From positions 1 through 64,000 of the forward strand of contig CAJQPA010000009.1 in NCBI GenBank assembly GCA_905480145.1: a stretch of 64,000 bases of DNA, written 5' to 3'. The first letter of the stretch is position 1, and each line of letters begins with the position of its first letter. The notes under the pieces are model-generated. The model worked only from the letters and a program-made list of their open reading frames with translations. It did not search any database and was not told the origin of the DNA. Source of the DNA: an uncultured Flavobacteriales bacterium (GTDB lineage: Bacteria; Bacteroidota; Bacteroidia; Flavobacteriales_D; Crocinitomicaceae). This document shows, in pieces, positions 6,736-64,000 of this stretch. A program made the position numbers and the translations under genes.

Positions 6736-6767
6736 GAATTAAATGTACATAGAAAATAAGAATTAGC

Positions 6768-7739: not shown

Positions 7740-7830
7740 AATATATAAGTCTGAAACAAAATTAACAATTCGCAGGAAAGATGACTATTTTAATTATATT
7801 TACCTTAAGCAAAATAACATACTATTATCT

Positions 7831-8727: not shown

Positions 8728-8731
8728 TAAA

Positions 8732-9157
8732 ATGAAATTCCTATTAATATCTATTATTTCTCTTTCTTTATTCACTGTGAGTTATTCTCAAAATTGTGAG
8801 CAGATTGTTGTAGATTGTGAATCATTGCTAAAATCAAGTGAAGATGGCGACAGTTTCATTTCTGATGGGCAAACTTATACTGCTTTTTTAGATAGAGAAA
8901 AGGCAGAATTCACTACAACATTCTACGGTGGGGCAACTTATCGCTTGGCAGCGAGTGCCGGGAATAGAGAAAATTTTGTGATTTTCACCGTTAAAGATGA
9001 AGAAGGACATATACTTTTCACAAATAAAAACTATAGCAATTCTCCTTATTGGGATTTTAAAGTTGACACTACAATACCTGTGATTATTACCACTGAATTG
9101 GACCTTGACCTTAAAGGAACAGGATGCGTCGTTATGATGATTGGTTTTAAAAAATAG
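8732..9157 (+). CDS. Hypothetical secreted protein
   Basis: The 141-residue protein has a signal peptide (MKFLLISIISLSLFTVSYSQ) and a short beta-rich mature region with Cys pairs (NCEQIVVDC and a late GTGCVV). Residues around AEFTTTFYGGATYRLAASAG look like a beta-sandwich. I do not recognise a family. The middle position in the lipoprotein/ABC set implies a function linked to transport or the envelope, but this is not shown by sequence. Confidence 0.7.
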   Translation: MKFLLISIISLSLFTVSYSQNCEQIVVDCESLLKSSEDGDSFISDGQTYTAFLDREKAEFTTTFYGGATYRLAASAGNRENFVIFTVKDEEGHILFTNKNYSNSPYWDFKVDTTIPVIITTELDLDLKGTGCVVMMIGFKK

Positions 9158-9161
9158 TTGA

Positions 9162-15353: not shown

Positions 15354-15425
15354 TAGCCCATAGGAGAATCGAACTCCTGTTACCAGGATGAAAACCTGGC
15401 GTCCTAACCACTAGACGAATGGGCC
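15354..15425 (-). tRNA. tRNA-Glu (anticodon TTC), copy 1
   Basis: On the minus strand a full cloverleaf can be drawn: acceptor GGCCCAT with ATGGGCT (G-T at the end) and discriminator A, anticodon stem CCAGG/CCTGG with loop TTTTCAT, hence anticodon TTC, and T-loop TTCGATT. The CCA end is not encoded. The sequence is identical to the second copy, 22 bases away. Confidence 0.95.
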
Positions 15426-15447: not shown

Positions 15448-15519
15448 TAGCCCATAGGAGAATCGAACTCCTGTTACCAGGATGAAAACCTGGCGTCCTA
15501 ACCACTAGACGAATGGGCC
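15448..15519 (-). tRNA. tRNA-Glu (anticodon TTC), copy 2
   Basis: This 72-base gene is identical to copy 1 and is the promoter-proximal one. It has the same TTC anticodon, stems and missing CCA. The tandem pair probably gives extra dose of the only Glu isoacceptor needed to read GAA and GAG. Confidence 0.95.
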
Positions 15520-20686: not shown

Positions 20687-23305
20687 ATGAACCAAGATAA
20701 ACTGACAATAAAAACGCAAGAGGTACTCCAAAATGCACAAGAACTTGCCACTGAACTTAACAATCAATCGATTGAGATTGGACACATTCTAAGCTCTATT
20801 GTTCAAACCGACAAAGACGTTTATCCCTTTCTTCTTAAGAAAGCAAATATAAATTCGTCAATTATAGAAAAAGTAATAGAACGAGAAATTAAGAATTATC
20901 CTAAAGTAACAGGTGGACAAATGTATCTGTCCAATGAGGCCAACGAAGTAATTAATAAAGCATTTGAATTGATGAAGGAATTTGAAGATCAATTCTTATC
21001 AATAGAAATCCTTTTCTACTCAATTGCAAAATCAAACGGCTTATTTGGAAAAATATTAAAGGAGGCCGGAATAAAAATTAAAGAATTAAAAACAAACATT
21101 ATGGATTTAAGAAATGGCGAATCAGTTAAATCTAATAGCCAAGACAGCAATTACCAAGCTTTAGAGAAATATGCAAACAACTTAAATGAACTAGCCAAAA
21201 CCGGGAAGTTAGACCCTGTAATTGGCCGAGATGAAGAAATAAGAAGAGTTCTTCAAATACTTACTCGAAGAACTAAAAACAACCCTATATTGGTAGGGGA
21301 ACCTGGAGTCGGGAAAACTGCGATTGCAGAAGGCATAGCTCACAGAATAATTAATGGCGATGTTCCAGAAAATTTAAAATCGAAACTAGTCTATTCATTA
21401 GACATGGGTTCATTGATCGCTGGAGCAAAATACAAAGGAGAATTCGAAGAACGTTTAAAAGCGGTCATCAAAGAAGTGACTGATGCTTCCGGAGAAATTA
21501 TACTATTTATAGACGAGATTCACACTTTAATTGGTGCCGGAGCGAGCGAGGGAGCTATGGATGCCGCTAATATATTAAAGCCTGCTTTAGCAAGAGGAGA
21601 TCTTAGAGCTGTTGGAGCAACAACTCTATCAGAATATCAAAAATATTTTGAAAAAGATAAAGCTATGGTAAGACGATTTCAAACCGTTTTAATTAATGAA
21701 CCAAGCACTGAAGATTCTATATCAATACTTCGAGGGATTAAAGAAAAATATGAAAGCCATCATAAAGTTATGATTAAAGACGAGGCTATTATTAGCGCTG
21801 TGGAACTATCTCAACGCTACATAACCGATCGCCATTTACCTGACAAAGCAATTGATCTAATCGATGAAGCGGCATCAAAACTAAGAATGGAAATCAATTC
21901 AAAGCCAGAAGAATTAGATGAAATAGAACGAAAGATACTTCAATTAGAAATTGAAAAAGCCGCTATAAAAAGAGAAAATGATAAAGAGAAATTATTAAAA
22001 ATAGAAGAAGAATTAGCAAATCTTAACGAGCAAAAAGATGGCTTTTCGGCGAAATGGCAAGCAGAAAAAAACATCATTGATTCAATCCAACAAACAAAAG
22101 ATGAAATCGATTCATTTAAACTCGAAGCTGACCAAGCAGAAAGGTCTGGTGATTATGGAAAAGTAGCTGAAATCCGATATGGAAAAGTTAAAGAAATGGA
22201 AATTCATCTTGAACAACTAAAAGAAGAACTTAGTCTCAAACAAGTTGACTCCAAAATGATAAAAGAAGAGGTTGATTCTGATGAAATTGCCGAGGTCGTA
22301 TCAAAATGGACAGGCATACCAATAAGTAAAATGGTGGAGAGCGAAAAACTCAAGTTACTAAAACTAGAGGATGAATTATCAAAACGAGTGGTCGGCCAAG
22401 AGGAAGCAATTGGTGCATTATCTGATGCTATAAGGAGGTCGAGATCGGGATTACAAGATGATAAAAAGCCAATTGGTTCATTTATTTTCTTAGGAACAAC
22501 AGGTGTTGGTAAAACTGAACTTGCGAAAACACTTGCAGACTATTTATTCAATGATGAAAACGCAATGACGAGAATCGACATGAGTGAATATCAAGAGAAA
22601 CATTCAGTGAGCAGGCTCGTTGGGGCTCCTCCTGGATATGTTGGATATGAAGAAGGAGGTCAATTAACGGAAGCTGTCAGAATGAAGCCCTACTCTATTG
22701 TCTTATTTGATGAAATAGAAAAAGCACATCCAGATGTCTTCAATGTGCTCTTGCAAGTTTTGGATGATGGCCGCTTAACTGACAACAAAGGACGTGTTGT
22801 TAATTTCAAGAATACAATAATAATAATGACCAGTAATCTTGGCTCTGAATTAATTCATGAAACCTTCGACGGAATAACGGAAGCTGAATATGGCCAAGCC
22901 ACTATCCGAGCTAAAGAAAAGGTAATGTACCTTCTCAAAGAAACGATAAGACCAGAATTCTTAAATCGAATTGATGAAACAGTTCTTTTTCAGCCACTAA
23001 GCATGAGTATGGTGAAAGAAATTCTGAAAATTCAATTGAATATGTTAACGAAAAAATTAAATGAAAATGATATCAATGTAATCATCAAAGAAGAAGCATT
23101 TGACTACTTGACAAAAAAAGGTTACGATCCATTTTTTGGAGCGAGACCCATAAAAAGAATTATTCAAAAAGAAGTAATGAATGAGCTTTCCAAAGCGATG
23201 CTATCTGATTCAATCAATAAAGAAAAAAACGTGATTATAGATTGTATTGACGATATGATAATTATAAGAAAGCCAATTTCGGCAGAAGAGGAAAAGGTAA
23301 GTTAA
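20687..23305 (+). CDS. clpB: ATP-dependent chaperone ClpB
   Basis: The 872-residue disaggregase has the N-terminal double Clp repeat (1-150), AAA1 with Walker [10 protein letters not shown] near residue 205 and Walker [15 protein letters not shown], a long coiled-coil middle domain (about 400-525), and AAA2 with GTTGVGKTE near residue 603. It lacks the ClpP-binding loop that ClpC at 43987 has. ClpB works with DnaK to rescue aggregated protein in the cytosol. Length is normal. A strong terminator follows. Confidence 0.97.
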
Positions 23306-49338: not shown

Positions 49339-50544
49339 ATGAAAATTTCTTTATTGAGCTCTGTTATAGTAATAGGAGCATTAACATTAGTGAGTAGTTC
49401 TTTTGGACAAAAAAAGAATGAAACGACCGCTGCAGTTATCTATAAGAACCAGTACATGATGAACATGGCAAAGGGAAAGTTAGATGAAGCTAAATTGGCT
49501 TTAATTGAAGCTAAAAGTTTTATCGATTTGGCAGCCGCACATCCTGAGACAAAAAACAGTCAAAAAACACTGTATTATAAAGGTGAAATCTATGCTAATT
49601 TCTTGACTTTAGGAATGCAGTCTCAAGATACTACTTTTATAAAAAAAGCAGGCGAAGATGCAATGGACCAATCAATCGGTGCATTTAAACTGGGGTATCC
49701 ATTAGGTAAAAAATACAAAGTAGACATCAAAGATGCTGCAAACCAAAAGGTAGTAATGCTGAGTAAATATGCAGGTATGCTATTTGGTATGGAGCAATAT
49801 GAAGAAGCTGCTGAACTTTATGAATACCAGGCAAAATACAGTGATGCTATTGAAAGGCTTGACACTTCTGCAATTTTTAATACAGCACTATGTTATGATA
49901 AAGCAGGTATTTATGACAAAGCAGCCATTAATTACGAAAAAGTCGCATTGGTAAATTACCGAGGAACTAATTCTGCTATTCTTGCATCAAGTGCCTACCG
50001 AAAAATTAAAAATCTAGAAAAGGCAAAAGAAATAATCAACAACGCACGGAAATCAAACCCTTCAGACAAAGGTCTTCTTTTAGAATTGGTTAACACGAAT
50101 ATTGATGCTGGTGATGCTGCTGGTGCAGAAAAAGCGCTTGCTGACGCAATTTCAACTGACCCTGACAATAAACAACTACATTATACAATTGGAACCATTA
50201 ATATTGACCTCAAGGAGAACGAGAAAGCAGAAGCATCATTAAATAGAGCCCTTGAAATTGATCCAAATTATGCGGATGCTCAATATCAACTAGGAGCACA
50301 CCTTGTTACATGGGCAGGTAAAATTAATACCGACGCAAAACAATTGAAATTTGGTGACGCTAACTACGATGTTATGATAGCTAAAAGCACAGCAACATAT
50401 GAAAGAGCCGTCATTCCATTAGAGAAGTATATTGCTAACTTCCCGAAGGATAAAGCAGTATTGAATATATTATTTCAAATTCACAGAAACTTAGGTAATT
50501 CTGAAAAAGCTATTGATTATAAAAAAAGAGCCGAAGCTCTTTAA
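49339..50544 (+). CDS. Exported TPR protein
   Basis: The 401-residue protein has a signal peptide (LSSVIVIGALTLVSSSFGQ) and then TPR units throughout, clearest at LYEYQAKYSDAIERLDTSAIFNTALCYDKAGIYDKAAINYEKVAL and LKENEKAEASLNRALEIDPNYADAQYQLGAHL. It should be periplasmic and bind protein. Its leader has the 12-mer TAAATAAAACAT also seen before two other exported-protein genes. It follows gyrA by 34 bases and ends at a two-way terminator. Confidence 0.8.
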   Translation: MKISLLSSVIVIGALTLVSSSFGQKKNETTAAVIYKNQYMMNMAKGKLDEAKLALIEAKSFIDLAAAHPETKNSQKTLYYKGEIYANFLTLGMQSQDTTFIKKAGEDAMDQSIGAFKLGYPLGKKYKVDIKDAANQKVVMLSKYAGMLFGMEQYEEAAELYEYQAKYSDAIERLDTSAIFNTALCYDKAGIYDKAAINYEKVALVNYRGTNSAILASSAYRKIKNLEKAKEIINNARKSNPSDKGLLLELVNTNIDAGDAAGAEKALADAISTDPDNKQLHYTIGTINIDLKENEKAEASLNRALEIDPNYADAQYQLGAHLVTWAGKINTDAKQLKFGDANYDVMIAKSTATYERAVIPLEKYIANFPKDKAVLNILFQIHRNLGNSEKAIDYKKRAEAL

Positions 50545-50562
50545 TCACATTTTAAAAAAAAT

Positions 50563-50597
50563 AAAAAAGTCCAAGATTTTCATCTTGGACTTTTTTT
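50563..50597. terminator. Bidirectional terminator between converging genes
   Basis: AAAAAAGTCCAAGAT pairs perfectly with ATCTTGGACTTTTTT around loop TTTC, with T runs on both strands. It ends the TPR gene (+) and the beta-propeller gene (-). Confidence 0.95.
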
Positions 50598-50602
50598 ATG
50601 CG

Positions 50603-51823
50603 TTATTTTTTAATCCATCTCAACATCTCATTTTCATTCAGTCGTATAAAATACACTCCTGAATTAAGATGACTAATATCGATGCGGTTTCTTGAATTAG
50701 CTTCAATTTTTAACATTTGTGCTCCGGTCATATCGATGATTTCTATTTGTGCTCCAAGCTCAACCCCATCCACTACAAGATAATCATTAGCCGGATTAGG
50801 ATAAACAAGAACCTGAGAGACCTTATCCTTTGCTCCTATGCTTGCATGTCTTGAAAGAACTTTATAAATGGCACCTTCTTTTTTCTGACTAAAATATAAT
50901 ACATCTCCAAAGAAAGCCAAACGAGCCCCAGACTCTTTTGCCAACGCTACTCTTTCGACAACTGCGGTATGTCCATTACTTATGTCTATTCTGCTAATAA
51001 AATTATTGGTGTTTGAAGAAAAATAAAGAAAATTTCCATGCAAAGCAATCCCTTCTGGACTTGCTAATTTAGCTACAAGAATTTCTTTTCCGAACAAATC
51101 ACGTTCATATAAAATATTCTTCCTTGAAATCATACCTGAAGTTCTTTCTGCGAGGTATAGAAAATCACCCTGAAAAGCAATATCTGAAGGCCCTGCCAAA
51201 TCAATCAATATTTTTTCATAAGGAAGCTTAAACCCTGGCATTATTGGACTTATTATCCTGTTATCATCAAAGTCCGAAATATATAATTTCCCACTGCTAT
51301 TCGCAGCAACTCCTGAAGGGGTATTCAAATTATTTAAAACAACTTTAAATGGCGCTCCAACGCCTAATTCATGTAAATTCACTCTAATCACTCTCCCCAT
51401 GTTATTGCCCCTAACACTTAATTCAGAAGCAATAAAATCATCTTCAGGGCTACCTACAAGATTTGCCGGGTTCAATGGTGGATCTACCGGATAACCTAAT
51501 TCAGACACAACAAGACCATCTTCAGAACTAATGGTAACATCTATTGGATAAACAAGACCATCAATTGCAATATTTTTGGATGGATAAGTATCTCTTTCTC
51601 TAATATCGAAATACGAAACTTTTTTTCCCCAAGACTCAGCAACAAACAAGTTATTACCATCAAAAGAAATTCCAATAGGTCCTGAAAGCCCATCAATTAC
51701 TTTTTCAACTTGAGCCATTCCATTTGGAATTAATACGCCAGTACTTACAAATTTTTGATCTTTTACTTGGGCAGAGCTACTCAACCCAATTAACACGGAA
51801 ACTAATAGTAAAGAATTTTTCAT
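50603..51823 (-). CDS. Secreted beta-propeller protein with type IX secretion C-terminal signal
   Basis: The 406-residue protein has a signal peptide (LLLVSVLIGLSSSAQ). Repeated units of about 40-45 residues follow, such as GISFDGNNLFVAESWGKKVSYFDI and GVAANSSGKLYISDFDDNRI, typical of NHL/SMP-type propellers. The last 75 residues (VLVYPNPANDYLVVDG ... GVYFIRLNENEMLRWIKK) are a type A T9SS sorting domain. It should be secreted across the outer membrane and be released or lipid-anchored. Its leader contains the 60-nt block shared with the SprB-like gene. Confidence 0.87.
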   Translation of the reverse strand: MKNSLLLVSVLIGLSSSAQVKDQKFVSTGVLIPNGMAQVEKVIDGLSGPIGISFDGNNLFVAESWGKKVSYFDIRERDTYPSKNIAIDGLVYPIDVTISSEDGLVVSELGYPVDPPLNPANLVGSPEDDFIASELSVRGNNMGRVIRVNLHELGVGAPFKVVLNNLNTPSGVAANSSGKLYISDFDDNRIISPIMPGFKLPYEKILIDLAGPSDIAFQGDFLYLAERTSGMISRKNILYERDLFGKEILVAKLASPEGIALHGNFLYFSSNTNNFISRIDISNGHTAVVERVALAKESGARLAFFGDVLYFSQKKEGAIYKVLSRHASIGAKDKVSQVLVYPNPANDYLVVDGVELGAQIEIIDMTGAQMLKIEANSRNRIDISHLNSGVYFIRLNENEMLRWIKK

Positions 51824-51870
51824 AACATCTAATTTTAAGTGGATATAAAAATTTTAGTTTATTAAGTTTT

Positions 51871-51930
51871 GAGTTTTTAAGTTCGCATGATTAGTTTGTG
51901 GTTGTATATAAAAGTACAATTATTTTCGAC
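51871..51930 (-). promoter_or_regulatory. Conserved 60-nt leader block, copy B
   Basis: Read on the minus strand, GTCGAAA, 5 bases, TGTA, 2 bases, TTTATA, then ACCACAAACTAATC and ATGCGAACT. It is identical at 50 of 60 positions without gaps to 60447-60506 on the plus strand. It ends 47 bases before the ATG of the propeller gene. GTCGAAA plus TAnnTTTATA could be the two boxes of a non-standard sigma factor. Confidence 0.7.
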
Positions 51931-52254
51931 AAAACAAACTTTTTATACGTTTAATTAGTGTTTTTCATAGACTAAATTAATTAAATGCAATATAAACAAG
52001 GCTTAAGGAGATGGGAAATAAATTACCATAGACTTATAATATGTATACCACAAATCATTAATGATAAATAGTTTCACCAGAATGGAAAACTATTGAATCT
52101 TTCTTTAATCACATATTATATAATTCCCAAGATAAATAAACGCAAACCAAAAGGTTTCGATGAATTATATTCATTTTTTGGGCCTTTTCGTCGAATAAAT
52201 GCTTAAATTCACGAAAAACTGGCATAAATCAGTAAAAAACACTCCATATCTTTT
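51931..52254. other. Rest of the divergent spacer before the CDO/CSAD gene
   Basis: This AT-rich stretch has no credible ORF. AAACC-AAAA-GGTTT (52144-52157) is a perfect small dyad about 100 bases before the ATG. No TAnnTTTG box with good spacing was found, and no riboswitch is recognised. Confidence 0.5.
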
Positions 52255-54123
52255 ATGAACTTATCACGAGAGGACGTTATTCCTAAAGAATTAGATTTAC
52301 TATTTCAATCAATTAAAAAGGAAAACGAAGATTTCAAAACGCTTATCAAAAAACATAATATTAATTCTTCTACCCTGCTGCCAATAGCTAGATGGACTGA
52401 AGAAACATATACAAGAATCTGCATAGATCGAAATGACAATTATGAATTAGTTCTGATCTGCTGGAATAAAGATCAAAAAACTGAAATTCACGGACACCCG
52501 GGCCAAAAATGTTGGGTTAACTTTGTAATGGGAGAGTTTCGTGAATGTATTTATGACCCTATAGATTTAACCACCTTAAAAGAAGAGAATACAGTAAATC
52601 CTGGTTCAGTCACTTTTATTGAAGATATAATGGGACATCATTGTCTTGAAAACGTTTCAGAAAATTTAGGTATAACTTTACATTTATATAAATCTGATTC
52701 AACAATAGACAGTGGATTGGAATTTCATTTTGATTATTCAAGTGAATCAAAACAGAATGAAGATATAACGCAAGAACTAGATTATTTTGTTCAAATATCT
52801 AACTCTCTGTTAATTGATGAGAAAGTCAATCCTATCTCAAAGAGAATACCAGTAGAAAACCTTAAAACTGAGCTTGACTTTGCATTAACAGATCAAGGTA
52901 TTGACGATACTCGATTTTATAAAACAGTTGAGGAAATTGTTTTAGCTACACCCAAAACATCATCTAAATTATTTTTCAACCAATTATTTGCCGGACGACA
53001 AAGTAAAGCAGTATTGGGAGATTTATTAGCGGTTATGCTTAATAACAGTATGTACACTTATAAAGTGGCTGGTGTTCAAGTTGGCATTGAAAAAGAAATA
53101 ATTGCTCAAGTACAAGAAAAAATTGGTTACGGATCTAATTCTGGGGGTACATTTCCTACCGGTGGCTCAATGAGTAACTTTATGGCAATTTTAATGGCAA
53201 GAGATAGGGCTGATGAACAGAGTCAGTTTATTGGTATTCAATCAGACTTAATAGCCTATACATCTGCTGAATCTCATTATTCTATAGAAAAGAACGCAAC
53301 ATTCATTGGACTAGGAAGAGATAATGTTCGGAAAGTACCTGCTGATTCTGTTGGAAGAATGGACTCGTCTAAATTAGCACAAATGATTGCTGAAGATAAG
53401 GCAAAAGGCAAAACTCCATTCTTTATCAATGGAACTGCTGGAACAACAGTTCTTGGCGCATTTGATCCATTTGAAGAACTCGCTGAAATTAGTAAAGCAA
53501 ATAACTGCTGGCTTCATATAGATGGAGCTTATTCTGGAGCTGTATTATTCAGTGAAAAGTATAAGGGCCTTATACAAGGAGTTTCAAAGTCAGATTCTTT
53601 TAGTTTTAACCCTCATAAAATGCTAGGCACACCAATGACGTGTTCTATCATCATGGTGAATGACCAAAAACACTTATATAACTCATTTAGTAACAGTGCG
53701 AAATATCTATACCAAACCGATCATGATGATTATAATTTAGGAAAGACTTCTTTTCAATGTGGCAGAAGAAATGATTCTTTAAAACTTTGGACACTATGGA
53801 AATCAGTTGGAACAGATGGGCTGGAAAAAATTGTTGATACACAGTTCGAATTGGCAGATATTGCTAGAAATTATATCAATTCTAATTCCGATTATACGGT
53901 TTATAGTTTTGATGATTCAATTTCTATTTGTTTTAACTACAAAGGAATTCCTGCGGACACCTTATGCACATCATTGTACGAAAAAGATGAATTGATGGTA
54001 GGATTTGGGAGCTTTAACGAAAATCAGTTTATTCGGTTAATTACAGTAAACGCTACCAACTCTGAAGCGGATATACTGAACTTCTTTAAAGTACTAGAAG
54101 CGCACGTAGATAAATATTTTTAA
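52255..54123 (+). CDS. Fused cysteine dioxygenase / cysteine-sulfinate decarboxylase
   Basis: The 622-residue protein joins two enzymes. Residues 1-160 are a type I cysteine dioxygenase cupin: Tyr52 and Arg54 (YTR, substrate carboxylate), iron ligands His79, His81 and His129, Cys86 and Tyr145 at the places of the crosslinked Cys93-Tyr157 pair of mammalian CDO, and His143. Residues 205-622 are a group II PLP decarboxylase: FFNQLFAG, GGTFPTGGSMSN, His341, HIDGAYSG (Asp423), and the PLP Lys455 in FNPHK. Together they could turn cysteine to cysteine sulfinate and then hypotaurine. Glutamate or aspartate as the second substrate is possible but less likely given the fusion. No oxidase for hypotaurine to taurine is seen nearby. 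Confidence 0.87.
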   Translation: MNLSREDVIPKELDLLFQSIKKENEDFKTLIKKHNINSSTLLPIARWTEETYTRICIDRNDNYELVLICWNKDQKTEIHGHPGQKCWVNFVMGEFRECIYDPIDLTTLKEENTVNPGSVTFIEDIMGHHCLENVSENLGITLHLYKSDSTIDSGLEFHFDYSSESKQNEDITQELDYFVQISNSLLIDEKVNPISKRIPVENLKTELDFALTDQGIDDTRFYKTVEEIVLATPKTSSKLFFNQLFAGRQSKAVLGDLLAVMLNNSMYTYKVAGVQVGIEKEIIAQVQEKIGYGSNSGGTFPTGGSMSNFMAILMARDRADEQSQFIGIQSDLIAYTSAESHYSIEKNATFIGLGRDNVRKVPADSVGRMDSSKLAQMIAEDKAKGKTPFFINGTAGTTVLGAFDPFEELAEISKANNCWLHIDGAYSGAVLFSEKYKGLIQGVSKSDSFSFNPHKMLGTPMTCSIIMVNDQKHLYNSFSNSAKYLYQTDHDDYNLGKTSFQCGRRNDSLKLWTLWKSVGTDGLEKIVDTQFELADIARNYINSNSDYTVYSFDDSISICFNYKGIPADTLCTSLYEKDELMVGFGSFNENQFIRLITVNATNSEADILNFFKVLEAHVDKYF

Positions 54124-54146
54124 TTCCAATTCAAGAACTGGAATTA
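54121..54146 (+). terminator. Hairpin at the stop of the CDO/CSAD gene
   Basis: TAATTCCA/TGGAATTA is a perfect 8-bp inverted repeat that starts with the stop codon itself. No T-run follows, so it may be an mRNA-end structure rather than a true terminator. Confidence 0.4.
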
Positions 54147-54535
54147 ACAGATTCTTAAAATAGAATTTTGGATTGTATTTACACTATTAACTCTTACTTC
54201 TTGTTTCAACTATAGAAATATGAGACTTTAGCTAATTTTAAGGATTTATCAATAATGGTTTGAGCTCAAACAGAACAACTAATCAAGGCTTAAACCCAGG
54301 TATTAAATTATTACAGGCATTGCTTTATAATCAATTCAGCTAAGAGTTTTAATATTAAATATTAATTTAGATTTCTAATGATTTTAGCAATTTCTAATGT
54401 TATTATTTGATCATAAAATTTAGATAGAATTTGTCAAACCAACTATGTCAGACTATTATTTATTTGCTGCCTACACAATAAGAAAAGGTTATTATAGCGT
54501 TAGCCACAATCATTGCATTATTTAAAATATATTCT
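54147..54535. other. Long spacer before the M1 peptidase gene
   Basis: This AT-rich stretch of 389 bases has no credible ORF. GTTTGAGCTCAAAC (54258-54271) is a perfect 14-base palindrome, a possible operator site. No clear promoter match or RNA gene is seen. Confidence 0.5.
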
Positions 54536-56125
54536 ATGTACAAGACGCTCCTTCTTTTCTTATTAATCTCTGCAATCTCTTATAGTCAGCATGGCATTGA
54601 TGTCCTGGACTACAATATGACCATTGCTGTAAATGACTCCACGGACAATATTGTAGTTGAAGAAATAATAACACTCAAAAAAAAAACTAATTCTAAAAAC
54701 ATTAATCTTGATTTGATATCTAAAAACAATGATGGTTTTGGAATGGCTGTTTTATCAGTTACAAATAATAATGAGCAATTAACCTTCAACCACTCTGGAT
54801 CTATCTTAAATATTTCAAATTTAAATTATAATCAAGATGAAAAATTTACACTTACCATAATTTATTCTGGAATCCCCAAAGATGGATTAGTTATCGGTAA
54901 GAATAAATATGGGAACAGAACTTTTTTTGGAGACAATTGGCCGAATAGAGCGCAGCATTGGATAGCATCTAACGATCATCCTTCCGATAAAGCAACCGTT
55001 AGTTTCGCTGTTATCGCACCTGAGAAATATAAGGTAATTGCGAATGGTACTTTTGTTAGAGAGGAAAAAATTAATGATCATAGAAAATTAACTTTCTACA
55101 AATCAAAAGTTGAGTTGCCAACAAAAGTAATGGTCATAGGAATTGCTGAATTTCATACATCGCCATTAGAGTCAAAATTCAATTTTCCTATTGAAAGCTG
55201 GGTATACATGGAGGATAAAATAAACGGAGTTAATGATATGAGTGTTGCACTTGACCCATTGACTTTTTTTATAAGTGAAATTGGAGATTACCCGTACACT
55301 AAACTTACAAATGTTCAGTCCACAACTAGATATGGAGGAATGGAAAATGCCAGTTGTATATTCTACGATGAGAATGCAATCACTGGAAAAAACACAATGG
55401 AGAATTTAATTGCTCATGAAATTGCTCATCAATGGTTTGGAAATTCTGTGTCAGAAAAAGACTGGAAACATATTTGGTTAAGTGAAGGATTTGCCACGTA
55501 CTTTACGAATTTACACATTGAACAGAAATATGGTCGCATGAAAATGAATGAACAACTCATTAAAGATCGAGATAAAATTATTCAATTTGAAAATAAAGTA
55601 CAACTTCCAGTTGTTGACACCTTGTCAACTAATCTGATTCATCTGCTTAACCCCAACTCATACCAGAAGGGCTCGTGGTTTTTACACATGCTAAGAAATA
55701 AAATTGGTAAAGAAAACTTTCGAATTGGAATTAAGAATTTCTATACCGAATACAAATTTAATAATGCCACCACTTCAGACTTCATTGCGATGATGTCTGA
55801 AGTATCCAAGCAAGATTTAAGTATGTTTTCAAATCAATGGCTAAAACAAAGCACAATGCCAGAACTAGAGGTACAAATAACTAAGAAACGAAAAAAGATA
55901 CTTTATACGATAACAAATACCAGTGAGTTAAATTATGAATTCCCTCTAGAAATTTCCATTGTGACTAATGGTAAACCAAATTTGAAAATTATTCAATTTA
56001 ACGAACAAGTAAAGAGTTATACATTTAAATTCCATAAGGAAGAAGACGCCATTCTCAAGCTAGATCCAAACGTTAACTTACTCTTTAGGGAAACGCAAAA
56101 AATAAGCAAAGAAAAAAAACAATAA
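54536..56125 (+). CDS. Exported M1 family zinc aminopeptidase
   Basis: The 529-residue protein has a signal peptide (LLLFLLISAISYSQ). An N-terminal beta domain is followed by the substrate motif GGMENA, a variant of GAMEN, near residue 265, and by HEIAH-x18-E (zinc ligands His294, His298 and Glu317; catalytic Glu295). It lacks the large C-terminal helical domain of long M1 enzymes and ends in a beta-rich segment, as in short Bacteroidota forms. It should clip N-terminal residues from peptides in the periplasm or outside. The universal stress gene follows after 30 bases. Confidence 0.92.
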   Translation: MYKTLLLFLLISAISYSQHGIDVLDYNMTIAVNDSTDNIVVEEIITLKKKTNSKNINLDLISKNNDGFGMAVLSVTNNNEQLTFNHSGSILNISNLNYNQDEKFTLTIIYSGIPKDGLVIGKNKYGNRTFFGDNWPNRAQHWIASNDHPSDKATVSFAVIAPEKYKVIANGTFVREEKINDHRKLTFYKSKVELPTKVMVIGIAEFHTSPLESKFNFPIESWVYMEDKINGVNDMSVALDPLTFFISEIGDYPYTKLTNVQSTTRYGGMENASCIFYDENAITGKNTMENLIAHEIAHQWFGNSVSEKDWKHIWLSEGFATYFTNLHIEQKYGRMKMNEQLIKDRDKIIQFENKVQLPVVDTLSTNLIHLLNPNSYQKGSWFLHMLRNKIGKENFRIGIKNFYTEYKFNNATTSDFIAMMSEVSKQDLSMFSNQWLKQSTMPELEVQITKKRKKILYTITNTSELNYEFPLEISIVTNGKPNLKIIQFNEQVKSYTFKFHKEEDAILKLDPNVNLLFRETQKISKEKKQ

Positions 56126-56155
56126 CTTTACACAGCTAAAACTAATAAATAAACT

Positions 56156-56983
56156 ATGGAAAACTCTCCGATTTATCTTATCCCTTTTGACTTCACGCCT
56201 GTATCTTCAAGTGCAATGAGACTTGGCTTAGACCTTGCAATTGCCAACAATGGCAGTGTAATGCTATTGCATGTCGTAAATAAACAGTCTGAAAAAAAAG
56301 AAGCAAAAAAACAATTTAAGAAAACAATTTCTGACCTAAGCGAAAGTGATGCAAAACTGGTCGTAACAAGAATTTTGATTGGTGACATATTTGACGACAT
56401 TACAAAAGCTGCGGAAATTATTGATGCTGCGCTAATCGTTATGGGCACCCATGGAGCGCGAGGCTTTCAAAAAATATTTGGAAGCAATGCTGTCAAAATG
56501 ATCAGTCACTCCTCTACTCCGTTAATGATTACACAGGGTAAAAAGACCGTTGATAAAATTAACTCTATCGTTATGCCTTTTTCTTTTGAGAAGAAGACGA
56601 TTCAAATAACAAACTTAGCGACATCGATCGCTAAGAAATTTAATGCTACAATTCATCTTGTTGGCTATCATGACACTGATGAGTGGTTGGAAAAAAACAT
56701 GGTGAATAATCAAAAAATAATTCGTCAGCATCTTCAAGAAAATGGAATTGAACATGTAATCGCAAATATCCCAGCTGGATCCGATTACATTGAAGAATTA
56801 ATGAAATACGCCCAGGAAGTCGATGCCGATTTAATGGCTGCTGGGTACTATCAAGAAGGAATCATTACTAACCCAAATTCATTTATTCAGTCGATGATTG
56901 AAAATGAACTTCATTTACCTTTACTAACAGTCAATGCTGAAGAATTGGGAGTTCAAGTGGGGAGCGCTGCGTCAGGTTTCTAA
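56156..56983 (+). CDS. Universal stress protein, two-domain type
   Basis: The 275-residue cytosolic protein holds two Usp domains in tandem. The first (1-145) has the ATP-type motif MGTHGARGFQKIFGSNAVKMI; the second (about 146-275) keeps the fold, with MAAGYYQEGIITNPNSFIQSMI in place of a full motif, so only the first is likely to bind ATP. Such proteins aid survival in stress or growth arrest. A strong two-way terminator follows. Confidence 0.9.
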   Translation: MENSPIYLIPFDFTPVSSSAMRLGLDLAIANNGSVMLLHVVNKQSEKKEAKKQFKKTISDLSESDAKLVVTRILIGDIFDDITKAAEIIDAALIVMGTHGARGFQKIFGSNAVKMISHSSTPLMITQGKKTVDKINSIVMPFSFEKKTIQITNLATSIAKKFNATIHLVGYHDTDEWLEKNMVNNQKIIRQHLQENGIEHVIANIPAGSDYIEELMKYAQEVDADLMAAGYYQEGIITNPNSFIQSMIENELHLPLLTVNAEELGVQVGSAASGF

Positions 56984-57000
56984 TCTAGTTTATATTCATA

Positions 57001-57032
57001 AAAAAAGGGACGCTGAAACGTCCCTTTTTTTT
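57001..57032. terminator. Bidirectional terminator between Usp and PorE-like genes
   Basis: AAAAAAGGGACG and CGTCCCTTTTTT pair perfectly around loop CTGAAA, with T runs on both strands. It serves the plus-strand Usp gene and the minus-strand gene ending at 57053. Confidence 0.94.
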
Positions 57033-57052
57033 ATGAAATTGATAACTACTTC

Positions 57053-59116
57053 CTATAGTGCCAAAACTTTAAATTCAGTTCGTCTATTTAATTGACGACC
57101 GGCTTTTGTTTCATTCGTAGCAATTGGCTCATCCTCTCCGTATCCTGCAGAAACTAATCGCGCCCCGCTAATTCCAGCTTTTGTTAGGTAATCAACAACT
57201 GCTTTAGCTCGTCTTTCTGAAAGTGACTGATTATATGCCGTGGCCCCTTGCGAATCTGTATGACCTCCTAATTCAATCTTAAGAGTAGGAACATCATTCA
57301 TCAACTTGATCAATCGATTTAACTCAGCTGTTGATGCAGGCCTCAGTGTTGCTTTGTCTAAATCAAAAAAGATATTCTTTAATACGATTTTAGCTCCTAC
57401 CTTCAGGTTCTTCAACTCAACATCCTTCTCCACCGTTTGAAAAGCAGATTCATTAGGTATGTCAAAATTCTCAGAATGGAACAAATAATTCTCTTTCTTC
57501 ACAGCGATACCATAATTTTTACCTGCTGGCAAAGAAACAAGGTATCTACCCGTTTTACTATTTGATTTGAAAGTGGCGATCACTTTGTTTGCGTCATTAT
57601 CGACAATTTCTATCTCTGCCTCTAGTACTTCCTTAGTTAAATAATCAGTTATAACACCCTTTAGTATTGTCAGCTGAGCCTCTTTAACAACTACGACTGG
57701 TGCAACTATCACTTCTTGAATCGGAGCAGCAATGTTTGCCAATAAATTATCTTCATTATTCAATACCATTGGTTTTTCTTCCCCTAGGAATGTTACCATA
57801 TAAAGATCTCTCAATCCAAGACCATCTTCACTCAAAGATGTATAATAACCATGTCTTCCACTTGCCGAAATAACAAAAAAGATATCGTCTTCAGTTGTAT
57901 TTACAGGATATCCGATATTTTCTGGCGTTCCCCATTTTTTTGTATCAGCATCATATACTGACTTAAAAATATCAAATCCTCCCATTGACTCGTGCCCTTG
58001 GGAACTAAAATACAATGTCTTACCATCTGGATGCATAAAAACACCTTCCTCAGAATACATTGTGTTAATTGTAGTACCTAAATTTTCAGCTTCACCCCAT
58101 TTGCCTTTTTCATCTATTCTAGAAATGTAGATATCATGATCTCCCTCTCCACCGGGCTTATCACTTACAAAATAGATAGCATTTCCATCAGGAGAATAGC
58201 ACGCCGATGATTCATGAAAATCCTTCGTGTTGATATTTTTACCTAAACTCACAGGCTCACCCCATACATCACCTTCTAATTTACATTCAAACAAATCACC
58301 CATTCCTTTTCTACCAAGGTAGACCAAGAATCTCTGACCATCTGCGGACAATCCAGAATTAGCATCGTGATTTGATGTATTAACATTAGTTCCTAAGTTG
58401 ATTGATTTTGTCCAAGAACCATCATCTTGTTTTTCAGACATATAAATATCTTCAAAATTTTCATTCAATGAAGGGTCAATTTTACCTCCGGTAGAATTAG
58501 GTCTTCGAGCAGTAAACAATAAAACTGATTCATCTGCAGAAATAACAGCACCGTATTCATTGTATTCTGTATTTACATTTTTACCAAGGTTATCAATAAA
58601 GACACGAATTGGTCTTTTAATCACCTCTTTACCATTATAGCAATGTTGGATTCGCATTTTTAAATCCTGCAAAACCATTGGATTAGGATTTGACATTGCT
58701 GATCCTTGATACCTACTATAGGCAGTAATAGCTTTGTCGAATTGCTTGTCCAAATGCAGAGCCCTTCCTAATAAAAAATAGGCATACGAATCAATACTTG
58801 GATTAAGTTTTACTGCTTTTTCCAAATGCTCTAATGCCTTATACTTATAGATTGAAGCCAAATAGCATTCGCCTAATTTCATGTTCAAATCTGAATTGTT
58901 CGGATTGAAATCATTTGCATTTTTAAAGAAAGGAATCGCATTTTTATAAAATGTTGCTCCGCTCTCATAAATTTCATTTCCTTCTTTAAGGTTATCCTTT
59001 GCTGCTTTAAAGCCTTCCTTGTTATCCTTAAAATTAGCTTTGTCAAATGCCACATCTTGCGCGAAAAAGGCATTTGAAATAGCAACTATTCCTATAATTA
59101 ATATTTTTCTTATCAT
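57053..59116 (-). CDS. PorE-like outer-membrane-associated protein (TPR, PD40, CRD, OmpA)
   Basis: The ATG at 59116 gives a signal peptide (MIRKILIIGIVAISNAFFAQ) and 687 residues; the longer frame overlaps the upstream gene. Domain order: TPR (20-165), PD40 beta-propeller repeats (about 185-455, SACYSPDGNAIYFVSDKPGG and similar), a carboxypeptidase-regulatory-like beta domain (about 490-560), and a C-terminal OmpA domain (GHTDSQGATAYNQSLSERRAKAV) that binds peptidoglycan. This order and size match PorE of the type IX secretion/gliding machinery; many related OmpA proteins exist, so the name is a best guess. It is 19 bases after the TPR gene. Confidence 0.85.
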   Translation of the reverse strand: MIRKILIIGIVAISNAFFAQDVAFDKANFKDNKEGFKAAKDNLKEGNEIYESGATFYKNAIPFFKNANDFNPNNSDLNMKLGECYLASIYKYKALEHLEKAVKLNPSIDSYAYFLLGRALHLDKQFDKAITAYSRYQGSAMSNPNPMVLQDLKMRIQHCYNGKEVIKRPIRVFIDNLGKNVNTEYNEYGAVISADESVLLFTARRPNSTGGKIDPSLNENFEDIYMSEKQDDGSWTKSINLGTNVNTSNHDANSGLSADGQRFLVYLGRKGMGDLFECKLEGDVWGEPVSLGKNINTKDFHESSACYSPDGNAIYFVSDKPGGEGDHDIYISRIDEKGKWGEAENLGTTINTMYSEEGVFMHPDGKTLYFSSQGHESMGGFDIFKSVYDADTKKWGTPENIGYPVNTTEDDIFFVISASGRHGYYTSLSEDGLGLRDLYMVTFLGEEKPMVLNNEDNLLANIAAPIQEVIVAPVVVVKEAQLTILKGVITDYLTKEVLEAEIEIVDNDANKVIATFKSNSKTGRYLVSLPAGKNYGIAVKKENYLFHSENFDIPNESAFQTVEKDVELKNLKVGAKIVLKNIFFDLDKATLRPASTAELNRLIKLMNDVPTLKIELGGHTDSQGATAYNQSLSERRAKAVVDYLTKAGISGARLVSAGYGEDEPIATNETKAGRQLNRRTEFKVLAL

Positions 59117-59135
59117 CTTGTAGTTTCTTAAATTC

Positions 59136-60197
59136 TTAATGGCAGATTCCAATATGTGATTGAGCACCTTCTGCACCTAATTCTAAAGCTTTTTTCCAAT
59201 CTTGGCAAGCACCTTCATCATTTCGAAGTAATTCTTTAGCGTTACCTCTATTTAAATATGCGTATGCATAATTTGCATCTAAGGAAATTGCCATTGAACA
59301 GTCATCAACACAACCTTGGTAATTTTTCAGTTTAAATTTAGCAGCAGCTCTGTTATTATAGGCATAAGAATAATCCTTGTTGACAGCAATAGCTTTTGAG
59401 AAATCATCGATAGCTCCTTTAAAATCATCAGTATCAAACTTTGCACTCCCTCGATTATTAATGGCAATATAATAGTCTCCATCCAAACTAATTGCCTTGG
59501 AGTAGCTTATAATAGCCTCTCTAAATTGACCTTTTTTTCTTAAAGCACTACCTAAATTATTATGAATAAATGGTAATTTATTGTTAAATTCAATCGCTTT
59601 TCTATAGTCCAGAATTGCTCCTTCATAATCTTCCAACTGTCGCTTTGCACTACCTCTGTCATTGTAGGCATAAGAAAAATCTTTTTTGGCATTAATTGCT
59701 TTGGTATAATCTTCAATTGCTTCTTTATATTTTTTTTGAGAAAATTTATAGCTAGCTCTATTATAAAAAGCTCTATGATGACTTCCATCAAGAGATATTG
59801 CCATGTCATAACTATAAATTGCATCTGTTAGATTATTCATTTTCTCTTGCGTCTCACCCTTCTTAAAATATGTTTCAGCTTTTGGATTCAACTCAATTGA
59901 TTTATTAAAGTCATTCAATGCATCTTGAAATGATTCCAAAGAATAATAAGCGAGCCCTCTATTATAAAATGCCAACTCAAAACTATCTTTTAACGTAATA
60001 GCCTTTGTGAAATTATCAACTGCATTTTTATACTTCTTTTGTTCCAGATCACTTACTCCTGTGTTATAAGCAATATCTGCAGCAATATCTGCACTATCTA
60101 ATATTACTGCTTCAACTATAGAATCTTGCTGTGCGAACGTAATTGAACTCATGAGAATCATGAATAAACAATAGCACGTTGTACGAATTTTTTTCAT
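59136..60197 (-). CDS. Exported TPR-repeat protein
   Basis: The 353-residue protein has a signal peptide (CLFMILMSSITFAQ) and then eight to nine regular 34-residue TPR units with the NRGxAxxxLxxYxxAIxDYxKAI pattern from residue 40 to the end. The last unit ends CQDWKKALELGAEGAQSHIGICH. It should be periplasmic and act as a scaffold. It lies directly before the PorE-like gene, so the two are likely partners in the envelope. Confidence 0.88.
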   Translation of the reverse strand: MKKIRTTCYCLFMILMSSITFAQQDSIVEAVILDSADIAADIAYNTGVSDLEQKKYKNAVDNFTKAITLKDSFELAFYNRGLAYYSLESFQDALNDFNKSIELNPKAETYFKKGETQEKMNNLTDAIYSYDMAISLDGSHHRAFYNRASYKFSQKKYKEAIEDYTKAINAKKDFSYAYNDRGSAKRQLEDYEGAILDYRKAIEFNNKLPFIHNNLGSALRKKGQFREAIISYSKAISLDGDYYIAINNRGSAKFDTDDFKGAIDDFSKAIAVNKDYSYAYNNRAAAKFKLKNYQGCVDDCSMAISLDANYAYAYLNRGNAKELLRNDEGACQDWKKALELGAEGAQSHIGICH

Positions 60198-60446
60198 CGG
60201 ATATATATTGATTTAATTTAATGAACACTAAAATACAAAATTGATACGAGGACAGATCAAAAATTATTCGATTGTTGCAAACAAGAATAAGACCAAGTAA
60301 TAAAAAATTGAAAACTATCAAAGAATTTCATTTAATAAACATAAAGTTTTTATTTTTTTTTCATCAACAAAAGCCTTATTGACATTATGAAATAGCACAT
60401 TTTAAACTTCATTTAATTATTATTCGTCGACAAAAAACTTGCTTTA
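60198..60446. other. Divergent spacer before the SprB-like gene, upstream part
   Basis: No credible ORF is seen in this AT-rich part. Just before the conserved block, CGTCGAC (60425-60431) gives a second GTCGA site 18 bases before the GTCGAAA box. No clear promoter for the minus-strand TPR gene was found. Confidence 0.45.
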
Positions 60447-60506
60447 GTCGAAATGTTTTGTAAATTTATAGACGACCACAAACTAATCATGCGAACTAAA
60501 AAACTA
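60447..60506 (+). promoter_or_regulatory. Conserved 60-nt leader block, copy A
   Basis: Same layout as copy B at 51871-51930: GTCGAAA, 5 bases, TGTA, 2 bases, TTTATA, ACCACAAACTAATC, ATGCGAACT. In this copy the inner ATG (60489) opens a 12-codon frame ending at 60527; in copy B the same ATG meets a stop after three codons, so a conserved peptide is not supported. Confidence 0.7.
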
Positions 60507-60538
60507 AGAATACCCCTCAACTATTGAGCTGGGATTCT
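60507..60538 (+). promoter_or_regulatory. Leader hairpin of the SprB-like gene
   Basis: AGAAT, bulge A, CCC, then CTCAA-CTA-TTGAG, CT, GGG, ATTCT form a two-part stem of 13 pairs. It sits between the conserved block and the ATG at 60586. It could be an attenuator or a stability element; no matching hairpin is seen after copy B. Confidence 0.5.
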
Positions 60539-60585
60539 AATGTTTTAAACTGTAGTTAACCCATATTAACCTAAACAGATTCGCT

Positions 60586-63500
60586 ATGAAAACAGAATTA
60601 ATCTTCTTCCGAAAAACGCAACGTATAATTGCAACTTGCACATTTTTATTATTAATTACCGTCTTAAATTCAAACAGTATATCACAATCTTTACCAGAGT
60701 GTACTGAAGAAGTTGTGCTACTAACAATTGACCTATCTAGTGATCCCGACAGTACTTACACATCCCCTTCCATAGAGCGAGTTGGTCAGTGTTGTGGCGC
60801 TAATGCAAATGTAAATTTCATATCATTTTACGCTACTCTGCACCCAAATGCGGCGATGGTCGAAATTGGAATTGTTGATGGCGCCAATCCAGCAGGTTCT
60901 GCCGATTATCACTTTGTAGATGGCGGAGACTTGCTTATTCCTGGAATATGTACAACACCAATACCCGGTGGGACAGATGGTGTTTGTATTCCCGATGGAA
61001 TTGTTGGTCCTGATTATAAAATAATGTTTAGTAAACCAGGAAATAATACAAATCAATTTTTCTTTAGACAGATTTTAAGACCAACTTATCCTGAAGATGA
61101 TTCAACGCGCATAGGTTGTTCTCTCCCTTTAAATATTTATGGGCTTGACAATATTCAAATCAGTGCTTTGAATTCTTCCGATGGAAATATGGATTTAAGT
61201 TTATACGAATCTTACTTAAGTTGTCTCAATTGTAATATTCCTAGCTTTGCTCCTGCTGCTGGCGCTCCTGATTGGATAGACTATATAATAACTGGTGATC
61301 CTCAAGCAATAGGTGCCTGTGGAACATACACTACAGCAGATACCGTTCGTTTATATACATTCTCAGAACTAGCGGCAACATATTCTCCTGACCCTGCAGA
61401 AATATGTCAGGGAGGTGATATTTTAATTACTGCTTCTGTTACTGGTGGCAACGGAGATTATTCATTCGAATGGACTAACAGTAACCAGGATATTATTTCC
61501 TCAACTGATAATCATACAATTTCTGTAGAAGGATCATTTACTGTTTCTATCGGTGATGAGTTAAATAGCCCAACTTGTCCTTCTTTCAACTTACCAGTAT
61601 CAGTAACATTAAGTGAGTTACCAACGGTTTTTGCCGGCGATGACCAAATTATTTGCGCAACAAGTCCAGAAATTTTTCTTCAAGGAGAATCCACGAATAC
61701 CTCATCTGTTGAATGGTCTGGTGGTAATGGAATATTTTCTCCAGATGAAAATTCTTTATTAGCTTCTTATTTACCAACAGCAAGTGAAATTAGTGCCGGT
61801 TCAGTTACATTAACATTATCCTCTACTGGAGCAGGCGCGACCTGTTCTGAGGTATCAAACGATATCTTAATAACATTTTCAGATTCAGTATTTGCCATTC
61901 CTACATTTTCAAATATCGATTGTAATGGAGAAACATCAACATTAAGCGCTGGCGTAATAGGCGGATCTCCGGGCTATATTTATAACTGGTCAACTGGAGA
62001 AACATCAGAATCGATTATTGTTCCAGCAGGAACCTATAGTGTTTCGGTATCAGATATATACGGGTGCCCAGCTAGTTCAACTGTTTCCATTTTGCAACCA
62101 GATCCTTTAACAGCAACATTGAGTAGTACGAACACCTCTACCGATATAGCTTGCGATGGAACTGCTTCAGTTATTATTTCTGGAGGTACAGGTCCATACA
62201 CCGCTGTTTGGTCTAATTCTGACATAGGGTTAACAGCCTCAAATTTATGTTATGGAATTGCTACTGTCGTCATTACTGACGATAATGGATGTATATTTAA
62301 TGGAAGCGTAGTTGTTAACAACCCTACTTGCTCTGCATTTAGCGTATTCGCAACTGGAACAAATGTATCTTGTTATGGTGATTCAGATGCACAAGCCTTT
62401 TCTTTCCCTTCAGGTGGAACCGCTCCTTATATCTATTCTTGGAACACCGCTCTCATTCAGGCGACACAAGATGCCTCAAATTTATCTGCAGGAACATATA
62501 CAGTTACCGTAACAGATAATTTAGGCTGTATAGATGTAGCAAGTGTGACCGTTCTTCAACCTTCTATAATTACCAACACGATGACCCATATGGATGCATC
62601 TTCAATTGGAGGTACAGAAGGTTACGCAACAGCAAACCCTATGGGTGGAACACCAGGATATACATATACTTGGGTGCCATCCGGTCAAAATACGCAAACC
62701 GCAATTAACCTTTCTACAAATACATATTATGTAAACATTTTAGATGCTAACTCTTGTTTAAAACAGGATAGTGTCTTTATTAGTGAACCTCCATGTAATA
62801 ATTTTGTTCTTGGAGTTAATGCTACCCATGTTTCATGTAATAGCGTTTCTGATGGTTCCGCTTATGTTGTTATTTCTCAAGGAACTGCGCCATTTTCTAT
62901 CGTTTGGTCTAGTGGAGAGTTAAATGTCAATTCTGTTTCAGGTCTTGCTGCTGGTTCATATACTGTTACAGTAACAGATGCTTCGAATTGCACGACTTTC
63001 GAAACGTTTGATATAACCGAGCCTGATCAACTTACGATTGGATTAGCTCCAACTGATATCTCATGCTTTGGTGCTGAAGATGGAACCATAGATTTAACTG
63101 TTGCTGGCGGTTTTTTTCCATACAGTTATGATTGGACACTAGGCGTAAACACAATTGCAAAAACTGAAGATTTAGATAACTTATCGAGTGGATCCTACTC
63201 CATTAAAGTAACTGATGCGAATGGATGTATGATTCAAGGAGGAAGCGGAATTTCTGAACCTGATCAACTTATAGGAATGTTAACCGTTTCTGACATTATT
63301 TGTAATGGTGATGATAATGGTTCTATTGATGTTGAAACAACAGGGGGAATTCTCCCTTACTCTTATAGCTGGGAAGGTCCAAATGGATTTACTAGTGGCT
63401 TAGAAGATTTAGTCGATCTTTCTAACGGCCTATATGAACTGCAAGTTTTGGACGGAAACAATTGTATGTTCTCTACAGTACTACAAAGTTATATCAACGA

Positions 63501-64000
63501 ACCAGATTCAGTAATCATTCAGCAATACTCAATTGATTGTCCTATCGCCGCTGAGAATGAAGCTATTGTTTCAATTGATTCAATCTCAGGAGGAGCTAAT
63601 GGAGAATATCAGGTTTCATTTGACAATGGATCTTCATTTGGCAATTTTGGAGAATATAATGCTAGTTTAGTGATTGATCAGTCATATGTGATTGTCGCGA
63701 TTGACAGCAACGGATGTTTAACGCCGAACTCTTTAAATATATCAATTGACCCTAAAGTAGAAATTACTTCAGTGGATTTTGACCCTTGTGTATTAGAAAA
63801 TCAAAACGATGTAAGTATATCAGTTTCTGTAACTGGTGGAGATGGTAATCCTTTTGAAATATCTACAGATGGCGGATTGTCTTTTAACAGTCCTGGTACA
63901 TATGTAATATCTTTAACTTCTGGTGAATCTTATGACATTGTTGCCAAAGACTCCAAAGGATGTTTATCAGTGCCATTCCCTATAGTAATTCCTTCATCAT
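60586..64000 (+). CDS. Giant SprB-like cell-surface adhesin (3' truncated)
   Basis: The frame is open from ATG at 60586 to the window edge: 1138 codons, no stop. A long basic signal peptide (MKTELIFFRKTQ, hydrophobic core, NSISQ) precedes an N-terminal domain of about 240 residues rich in Cys and Gly, common in Bacteroidota surface proteins. PKD-like units follow (about 260-440), then seven SprB-type repeats (from about residue 443). SprB proteins are T9SS-exported adhesins that move over the cell in gliding. The sorting domain would lie outside the window. Its leader carries the shared 60-nt block. Confidence 0.87.
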   Translation, partial: MKTELIFFRKTQRIIATCTFLLLITVLNSNSISQSLPECTEEVVLLTIDLSSDPDSTYTSPSIERVGQCCGANANVNFISFYATLHPNAAMVEIGIVDGANPAGSADYHFVDGGDLLIPGICTTPIPGGTDGVCIPDGIVGPDYKIMFSKPGNNTNQFFFRQILRPTYPEDDSTRIGCSLPLNIYGLDNIQISALNSSDGNMDLSLYESYLSCLNCNIPSFAPAAGAPDWIDYIITGDPQAIGACGTYTTADTVRLYTFSELAATYSPDPAEICQGGDILITASVTGGNGDYSFEWTNSNQDIISSTDNHTISVEGSFTVSIGDELNSPTCPSFNLPVSVTLSELPTVFAGDDQIICATSPEIFLQGESTNTSSVEWSGGNGIFSPDENSLLASYLPTASEISAGSVTLTLSSTGAGATCSEVSNDILITFSDSVFAIPTFSNIDCNGETSTLSAGVIGGSPGYIYNWSTGETSESIIVPAGTYSVSVSDIYGCPASSTVSILQPDPLTATLSSTNTSTDIACDGTASVIISGGTGPYTAVWSNSDIGLTASNLCYGIATVVITDDNGCIFNGSVVVNNPTCSAFSVFATGTNVSCYGDSDAQAFSFPSGGTAPYIYSWNTALIQATQDASNLSAGTYTVTVTDNLGCIDVASVTVLQPSIITNTMTHMDASSIGGTEGYATANPMGGTPGYTYTWVPSGQNTQTAINLSTNTYYVNILDANSCLKQDSVFISEPPCNNFVLGVNATHVSCNSVSDGSAYVVISQGTAPFSIVWSSGELNVNSVSGLAAGSYTVTVTDASNCTTFETFDITEPDQLTIGLAPTDISCFGAEDGTIDLTVAGGFFPYSYDWTLGVNTIAKTEDLDNLSSGSYSIKVTDANGCMIQGGSGISEPDQLIGMLTVSDIICNGDDNGSIDVETTGGILPYSYSWEGPNGFTSGLEDLVDLSNGLYELQVLDGNNCMFSTVLQSYINEPDSVIIQQYSIDCPIAAENEAIVSIDSISGGANGEYQVSFDNGSSFGNFGEYNASLVIDQSYVIVAIDSNGCLTPNSLNISIDPKVEITSVDFDPCVLENQNDVSISVSVTGGDGNPFEISTDGGLSFNSPGTYVISLTSGESYDIVAKDSKGCLSVPFPIVIPSS
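61912..63510 (+). repeat. Seven SprB-type protein repeats
   Basis: Units of about 70-80 residues share a Cys-Asn/Tyr/Phe-Gly start, a GG-x-x-PY-x-Y-x-W core (for example GGTAPYIYSW and GGFFPYSYDW), a Leu-x-x-G-x-Y turn (LSAGTYTVTVTD) and a D-x-x-GC end. They are diverged at DNA level, so recent tandem duplication is not obvious. Two weaker units may follow to the window edge. Confidence 0.8.

Follow-up and report, generated by a model that had tools for sequence, protein, structure and literature searches.

Two inverted copies of a promoter-like block precede unrelated T9SS-related surface-protein genes in a Crocinitomicaceae bacterium

Two unrelated surface-protein genes of an uncultured Flavobacteriales bacterium (Crocinitomicaceae), both T9SS-related, are each preceded by a copy of one and the same block, which occurs nowhere else in the sequence searched. 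The block can be read as a control module of about 80 bp that would consist of a sigma-A-like Bacteroidetes promoter and the first ~25-35 transcribed nucleotides, present twice, in inverted and outward-facing orientation, at a distance of 8.5 kb. One copy may have been derived from the other by local duplication or conversion within the species' own lineage. The copies would drive a gene for a beta-propeller protein and a gene for an SprB-like protein, respectively, and the two genes would be expected to respond alike, because each would be under one copy of the module. On the strength of the sequence, we consider it somewhat probable that an inverted local copy of a promoter and leader start has in this way given the two genes shared control. 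All positions below refer to the window, that is, the whole 64,000-nt stretch of DNA analysed (Table 1).

The original prediction had matched 60 nt of the minus strand (51930-51871) to 60 nt of the plus strand (60447-60506), and the window alignment confirmed this match: the two copies are identical at 50 of 60 positions without gaps and share a core, ACCACAAACTAATC...ATGCGAACT, in which 23 of 23 nucleotides agree. The exact spacing reported for the boxes GTCGAAA and TAnnTTTATA was borne out as well, being equal in both copies. The runners-up among ungapped 60-mers of the whole 64-kb window match the sprB-side copy at only 33 and 32 of 60 positions, and the 22-mer with up to three mismatches was observed twice, against an expectation of 0.00 from 100 shuffled windows. 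Furthermore, the repeat is longer than 60 nt. A repeat finder delimited inverted, outward-facing arms of 78 nt that are 8488 nt apart, and the similarity ends at both edges of these ~78 nt. Since 15 of the 78 columns differ, the block is not an assembly duplicate. Gene duplication as its origin, already dismissed in the original prediction, was ruled out: the propeller and SprB-like proteins lack similarity to each other (best BLASTP E = 0.20).

Table 1 Positions of the duplicated block, its elements and the downstream genes in the window
Feature	Position	Strand	Basis or remark
NHL beta-propeller gene with T9SS Por_Secre_tail	50603..51823	-	Pfam
SprB-repeat surface protein gene	60586..63999	+	Pfam SprB; 2421-codon frame, extends past the window end
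Block copy 1, 78 nt	51867..51944	-	5′ of propeller gene; inverted-repeat arm, 81% to copy 2
Block copy 2, 78 nt	60433..60510	+	5′ of SprB-like gene; inverted-repeat arm
23-nt identical core, copy 1	51880..51902	-	1-2 nt past predicted transcription start
23-nt identical core, copy 2	60475..60497	+	Sequence match to copy 1 core
GTCGAAA, copy 1	51924..51930	-	Pattern search
GTCGAAA, copy 2	60447..60453	+	Pattern search
-7-like box TACTTTTA, copy 1	51909..51916	-	Read from sequence
-7-like box TAAATTTA, copy 2	60461..60468	+	Read from sequence
Candidate -33 TTTG, copy 1	51935..51938	-	18 nt 5′ of -7-like box; alignment
Candidate -33 CTTG, copy 2	60438..60441	+	19 nt 5′ of -7-like box; alignment
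Stable hairpin, sprB leader	60507..60538	+	-10.7 kcal/mol alone; not common to copy 1

Pfam matches uphold the earlier reading of both downstream genes as T9SS/surface-protein genes, with an NHL propeller and Por tail in one product and SprB repeats in the other. Among the genus matches listed for the propeller gene there is no full-length relative; these matches cover only the C-terminal part of the protein, from residue 234 at the widest. Past the window end, in locus L064 (positions 3853-11385), the SprB-like gene is followed by what we take to be PorP/SprF-like, OmpA-like and additional PorP-like genes, along with one for a gliding-type C-terminal protein. Together with the SprB-like gene, these form a surface-protein cluster. 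Pfam was run on 42 ORFs of the window, 7 of which have no family, and we recognised no transcription factor, sigma factor, RNA-binding regulator or recombinase among them; the scan covered the ORFs of at least 100 codons except two long ones, presumably clpC and gyrA, and four that are short and overlapping. The sigma-54 interaction domain gave a side match of 35.4 bits (cut-off 20.2) on a ClpB-type AAA protein (20687-23305), which was taken as AAA cross-matching. The ORF at 52255-54123 encodes, according to Pfam, a cysteine-dioxygenase-type domain fused to a PLP decarboxylase, possibly a one-protein route to hypotaurine/taurine. This fusion is matched over both parts in 4 of 23 genomes at E <= 1e-30 (the own genome, G008, G017 and G023), the other 19 matching genomes covering the decarboxylase part only.

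The source genome (2.44 Mb in 63 contigs, 90.3% complete) was searched for the block by pattern, BLAST and profile, and two copies were obtained, those upstream of the propeller and SprB-like genes. The 22-mer with up to three mismatches hit the two block sites only. BLAST with the 80-nt sprB-side copy hit its counterpart at E = 8.4e-15, with everything else at E >= 0.3; the eight weaker matches (E from 0.3 to 2) are short pieces of 14-38 nt, several of which contain TTTTGTAAATTT. A profile built from both copies recovered these at ~1e-22 and nothing else below E = 0.4, and none of the five weaker profile matches in the own genome (E from 0.4 to 9.8) holds the whole block. The scatter over random sites that the original prediction had contemplated did not appear, as no other genomic sites were found. 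The same holds for the surface-protein regulon that it had proposed: both copies recovered from the 90.3% complete genome belong to one locus. A further copy is conceivable, as the assembly may lack about a tenth of the genome. With two copies in the searchable sequence, the block is therefore a two-site feature of one locus rather than the mark of a regulon.

Beyond the source genome, the core with up to three mismatches was absent from every other genome among 60 searched as relatives (the own genome included), 33 of these others being congeners. In an order-wide sample of 399 genomes (own included), five others gave a single three-mismatch match each, versus three in a backward control, so that the order-level matches to the core are at chance level; two of the five share a mutually similar, putatively coding sequence. 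The exact 18-mer was found once among the 84,980 species of the GTDB collection, in a planctomycete, where it presumably stands in front of a nifH-like frame, and once in viral contigs (the own genome is possibly not in either collection). Neither match has a shared context, and both were taken as chance. When the collected loci were scored with the block profile, the best non-self score was 13.0, compared to 84-85 for the block copies.

Both copies lie at gene-start distance and contain a TAnnTTTA box. The consensus reported for the Bacteroidetes primary sigma factor is -33 TTTG / -7 TAnnTTTG, and in F. johnsoniae the -33 element is described as weak and the final G of the -7 box as nearly invariant (PMC6847099). 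The block resembles such sigma-A (sigma-ABfr) promoters in the TAnnTTT part, present in TACTTTTA and TAAATTTA, and in its distance to the gene start; a candidate -33 element is TTTG 18 nt upstream of the box in copy 1 and CTTG 19 nt upstream in copy 2. The block departs from these promoters in the last base of the box, which is A rather than the consensus G in both copies, as the original prediction had correctly noted. This replacement is an ordinary variant in the genus: at 30 of the 58 FNR-like motif sites described below, the box ends with G in 23 cases, with A in 6 and with T in 1, and at 26 of these 30 sites an open frame of at least 60 codons starts within 260 nt downstream. In the window, TAnnTTTA is enriched 3.05-fold in intergenic versus coding DNA, compared to 1.88-fold for TAnnTTTG, 2.17-fold for TAnnTTTT and 1.07-fold for TAnnTTTC. 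Since TAnnTTTT is enriched as well, AT-richness accounts for part of the signal, which is weak promoter evidence. Across 50400-61000, a scan for sigma-70-type promoters (46 versus 46.7 in shuffles) and a scan for terminators (5 versus 5.1) remained at shuffle level. The block reads best as one that works like a sigma-A-type Bacteroidetes promoter; it is not filed as a proven member of that class because its -7 box ends with A instead of G.

Transcripts of the primary sigma factor are reported to start 4-5 nt 3′ of the -7 box (PMC6847099). This spacing would put the start at 51903/51904 (-) and 60473/60474 (+), just 1-2 nt ahead of the 23-nt core, which would thus be the very start of the mRNA. 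Accordingly worded, the earlier claim of a promoter with a conserved 5′ leader stands with respect to a promoter-like region and a conserved leader start, and is not supported with respect to an alternative sigma factor. The changes between the copies are unevenly spread: 12 of 42 columns differ on the promoter side (columns 2-43) and 1 of 31 on the leader side (columns 44-74; Fisher p = 0.005 with boundaries chosen post hoc). With the leader side widened to columns 44-79, 3 of 36 columns differ (p = 0.04, again with post hoc boundaries), and under random placement of the changes 23 identities in a row have P = 0.04-0.05. The clustering is hence of moderate significance as a statistic. It favours a leader start that is either constrained or recently homogenised, the two sequences fitting both, and the smaller share of changes in the transcribed part is suggestive, though no proof, of a role for the leader start as such.

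A common structure does not explain the core, because the sprB leader (60476-60585) folds strongly (z = -3.85, with 0 of 200 shuffles as stable), in contrast to the propeller leader (z = +0.81); structure conserved in both leaders was therefore rejected. The block resembles structured 5′ cis-regulatory leaders in that its sprB leader is structured, but it differs from them in that no Rfam family reaches threshold over it and the structure is absent from copy 1. The nearest family by score, the PreQ1 riboswitch (RF00522), aligns over copy 2 at 16.2 bits versus a threshold of 39 (E = 0.34), with agreement mainly in the A-rich 3′ tail, and does not match copy 1 up to E = 5; we took this sub-threshold match as chance. 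At the gathering threshold, Rfam yielded nothing in the window but two tRNAs, which form a tandem of equal Rfam score (15354-15425 and 15448-15519). Pairing of the core with the start codon region was also discarded as an explanation: at the sprB start it is stronger than in letter shuffles (P = 0.019), yet equally strong pairing is seen at 4 of the 35 further gene starts in the window, and the propeller start gives P = 0.39. A short upstream ORF (ATGCGAACT...) is 3 codons long in copy 1 but 12 codons long in copy 2, so its length is not conserved. AACT is over-represented in both leaders (5 versus 1.7 expected, P = 0.001, and 5 versus 2.0, P = 0.019), a post hoc count in leaders that share the core.

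The gene order M1 peptidase, USP, OmpA-like, TPR is kept in three (G010, G016 and G019) of nine loci of relatives in which the OmpA-like and TPR genes are present, and was not found in the other six, in at least four of which (G011, G022, G030 and G032) the contig ends less than 300 nt from the OmpA-like gene. Only one of the nine, G011, resembles the window in having a SprB-like gene that diverges from this TPR gene. The upstream regions of four SprB-like genes were compared with that of the window gene. Those of G011 and G028 carry TGAC-N4-GTCA and, after a further 23 nt, TAnnTTT; this arrangement is also present at the paralogue on contig C3 of the own genome, although 350 nt before the start codon, and G004 has only a one-mismatch palindrome without the 23-nt spacing. 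No TGAC-N4-GTCA-type site with fewer than two mismatches was detected in the 389 nt upstream of the window sprB. Because this element is absent, the window sprB promoter differs from its positional counterpart in G011 and has probably been rewired. Genus-wide, the full motif (TGAC-N4-GTCA, 23 nt, TAnnTTT) has 58 matches over 34 genomes (for example, in loci L034, L124, L138, L141, L153 and L163) versus 3 in a backward control, and may be an activator site of the FNR/CRP type, positioned at about -43. Among the frames downstream of it are those for a cytochrome c, a radical-SAM protein that we take to be HemN-like, a protein of phenylacetate catabolism, a DUF983 protein and SprB-like proteins. 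A literature search found no paper on a TGAC-N4-GTCA-type site in flavobacteria.

Several other explanations of the block have to be set against local copying. The original prediction had attributed it to an alternative, perhaps ECF-type, sigma factor marking a surface-protein regulon. Sigma-54 promoters contain GG in their -24 element, and neither GG nor CGT nor TAnnTTGY is present in either 80-nt copy. According to PMC9723704, T9SS genes of F. psychrophilum have promoters with an ECF-type CGT box in the -10 region (SM6), an ECF factor has been reported for P. gingivalis, and the F. psychrophilum sprB operon (remFG-sprCDBF) is preceded by a sigma-54 promoter (SM4) and a TAnnTTGY promoter (SM5). 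The block shares with these systems its T9SS-related downstream genes and the position of copy 2 upstream of an SprB-type gene. However, unlike SM6 promoters, it lacks CGT in both copies and has no multi-gene set in the own genome, where pattern and profile searches located no further sites; unlike SM4 and SM5, it lacks GG for a -24 box and TAnnTTGY. GTCGAAA, proposed earlier as a genome-wide box, fared no better: the spaced pair GTCGAAA-N11-TTTATA with up to one mismatch has 7 matches in the own genome, below the 17 of the reversed pattern, and the five outside the block lie within or antisense to open frames. Given the missing CGT and this lack of enrichment, and with the A at the -7 G being a genus variant, the ECF regulon is largely refuted and very unlikely to be the explanation. 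The main rival to copying is a dedicated regulator of only these two genes, either a protein that binds DNA around the start site or an RNA-binding protein or small RNA acting on the first 25-40 nt of the mRNA, with selection keeping exactly two targets. The identity of the core next to a promoter half that differs at 12 of 42 columns would fit such a regulator, as would the AACT excess, with the reservation already given. On the other hand, the Pfam scan recognised no candidate (one may lie elsewhere, or among the 7 of 42 ORFs without a family), the leaders lack a common structure, and recent copying accounts for the identity equally well; we regard a dedicated regulator as rather unlikely, although worth serious consideration. 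Quite doubtful is the proposal that the first ~25-40 nt of the two mRNAs would act as a transplantable leader element with its own dedicated reader, an RNA-binding protein or small RNA; such an element would tie expression of the propeller to that of the SprB-like adhesin and would have replaced the FNR-like input seen at SprB-like genes of relatives.

The inverted, outward-facing arrangement and the perfect 23-bp core could also indicate recombination sites of an invertible 8.5-kb segment, that is, phase variation. We consider this very improbable: no recombinase was recognised among the 42 Pfam-scanned ORFs, inversion would keep both promoters in place, and in G016 the M1-USP-OmpA-TPR genes have the same orientation relative to gyrA as in the window, so that this one comparator shows no net inversion and disfavours inversion between the copies. 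An inactive dispersed repeat, a remnant of a mobile element or an assembly artefact, for which nothing positive speaks, is highly unlikely: only two copies were found, both at a promoter position, and the gene order partly matches that of relatives. In favour of local copying we counted the presence of two copies in the own genome versus none in 33 congeners and control-level matches in the order, the lack of a full-length propeller relative among the genus matches listed, and the dissimilarity of the window sprB promoter to that of G011. The lack of a terminal G in the -7 box, the enrichment of TAnnTTTT alongside TAnnTTTA in intergenic DNA, the moderate clustering of changes and the sample of two sequences were counted against the copying and promoter reading.

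Collectively, the block provides a compact case in which a control region is common to neighbouring, unrelated surface-protein genes, probably by copying. It also illustrates that a striking shared leader need not imply a regulon, the whole-genome search having left two sites. Should the leader be functional, it would point to RNA-level control of adhesion proteins in Bacteroidetes, and the FNR-like motif of the relatives raises the prospect that some SprB-like adhesins may be under oxygen or NO control. In the bacterium studied here, two T9SS proteins may fall under one input.
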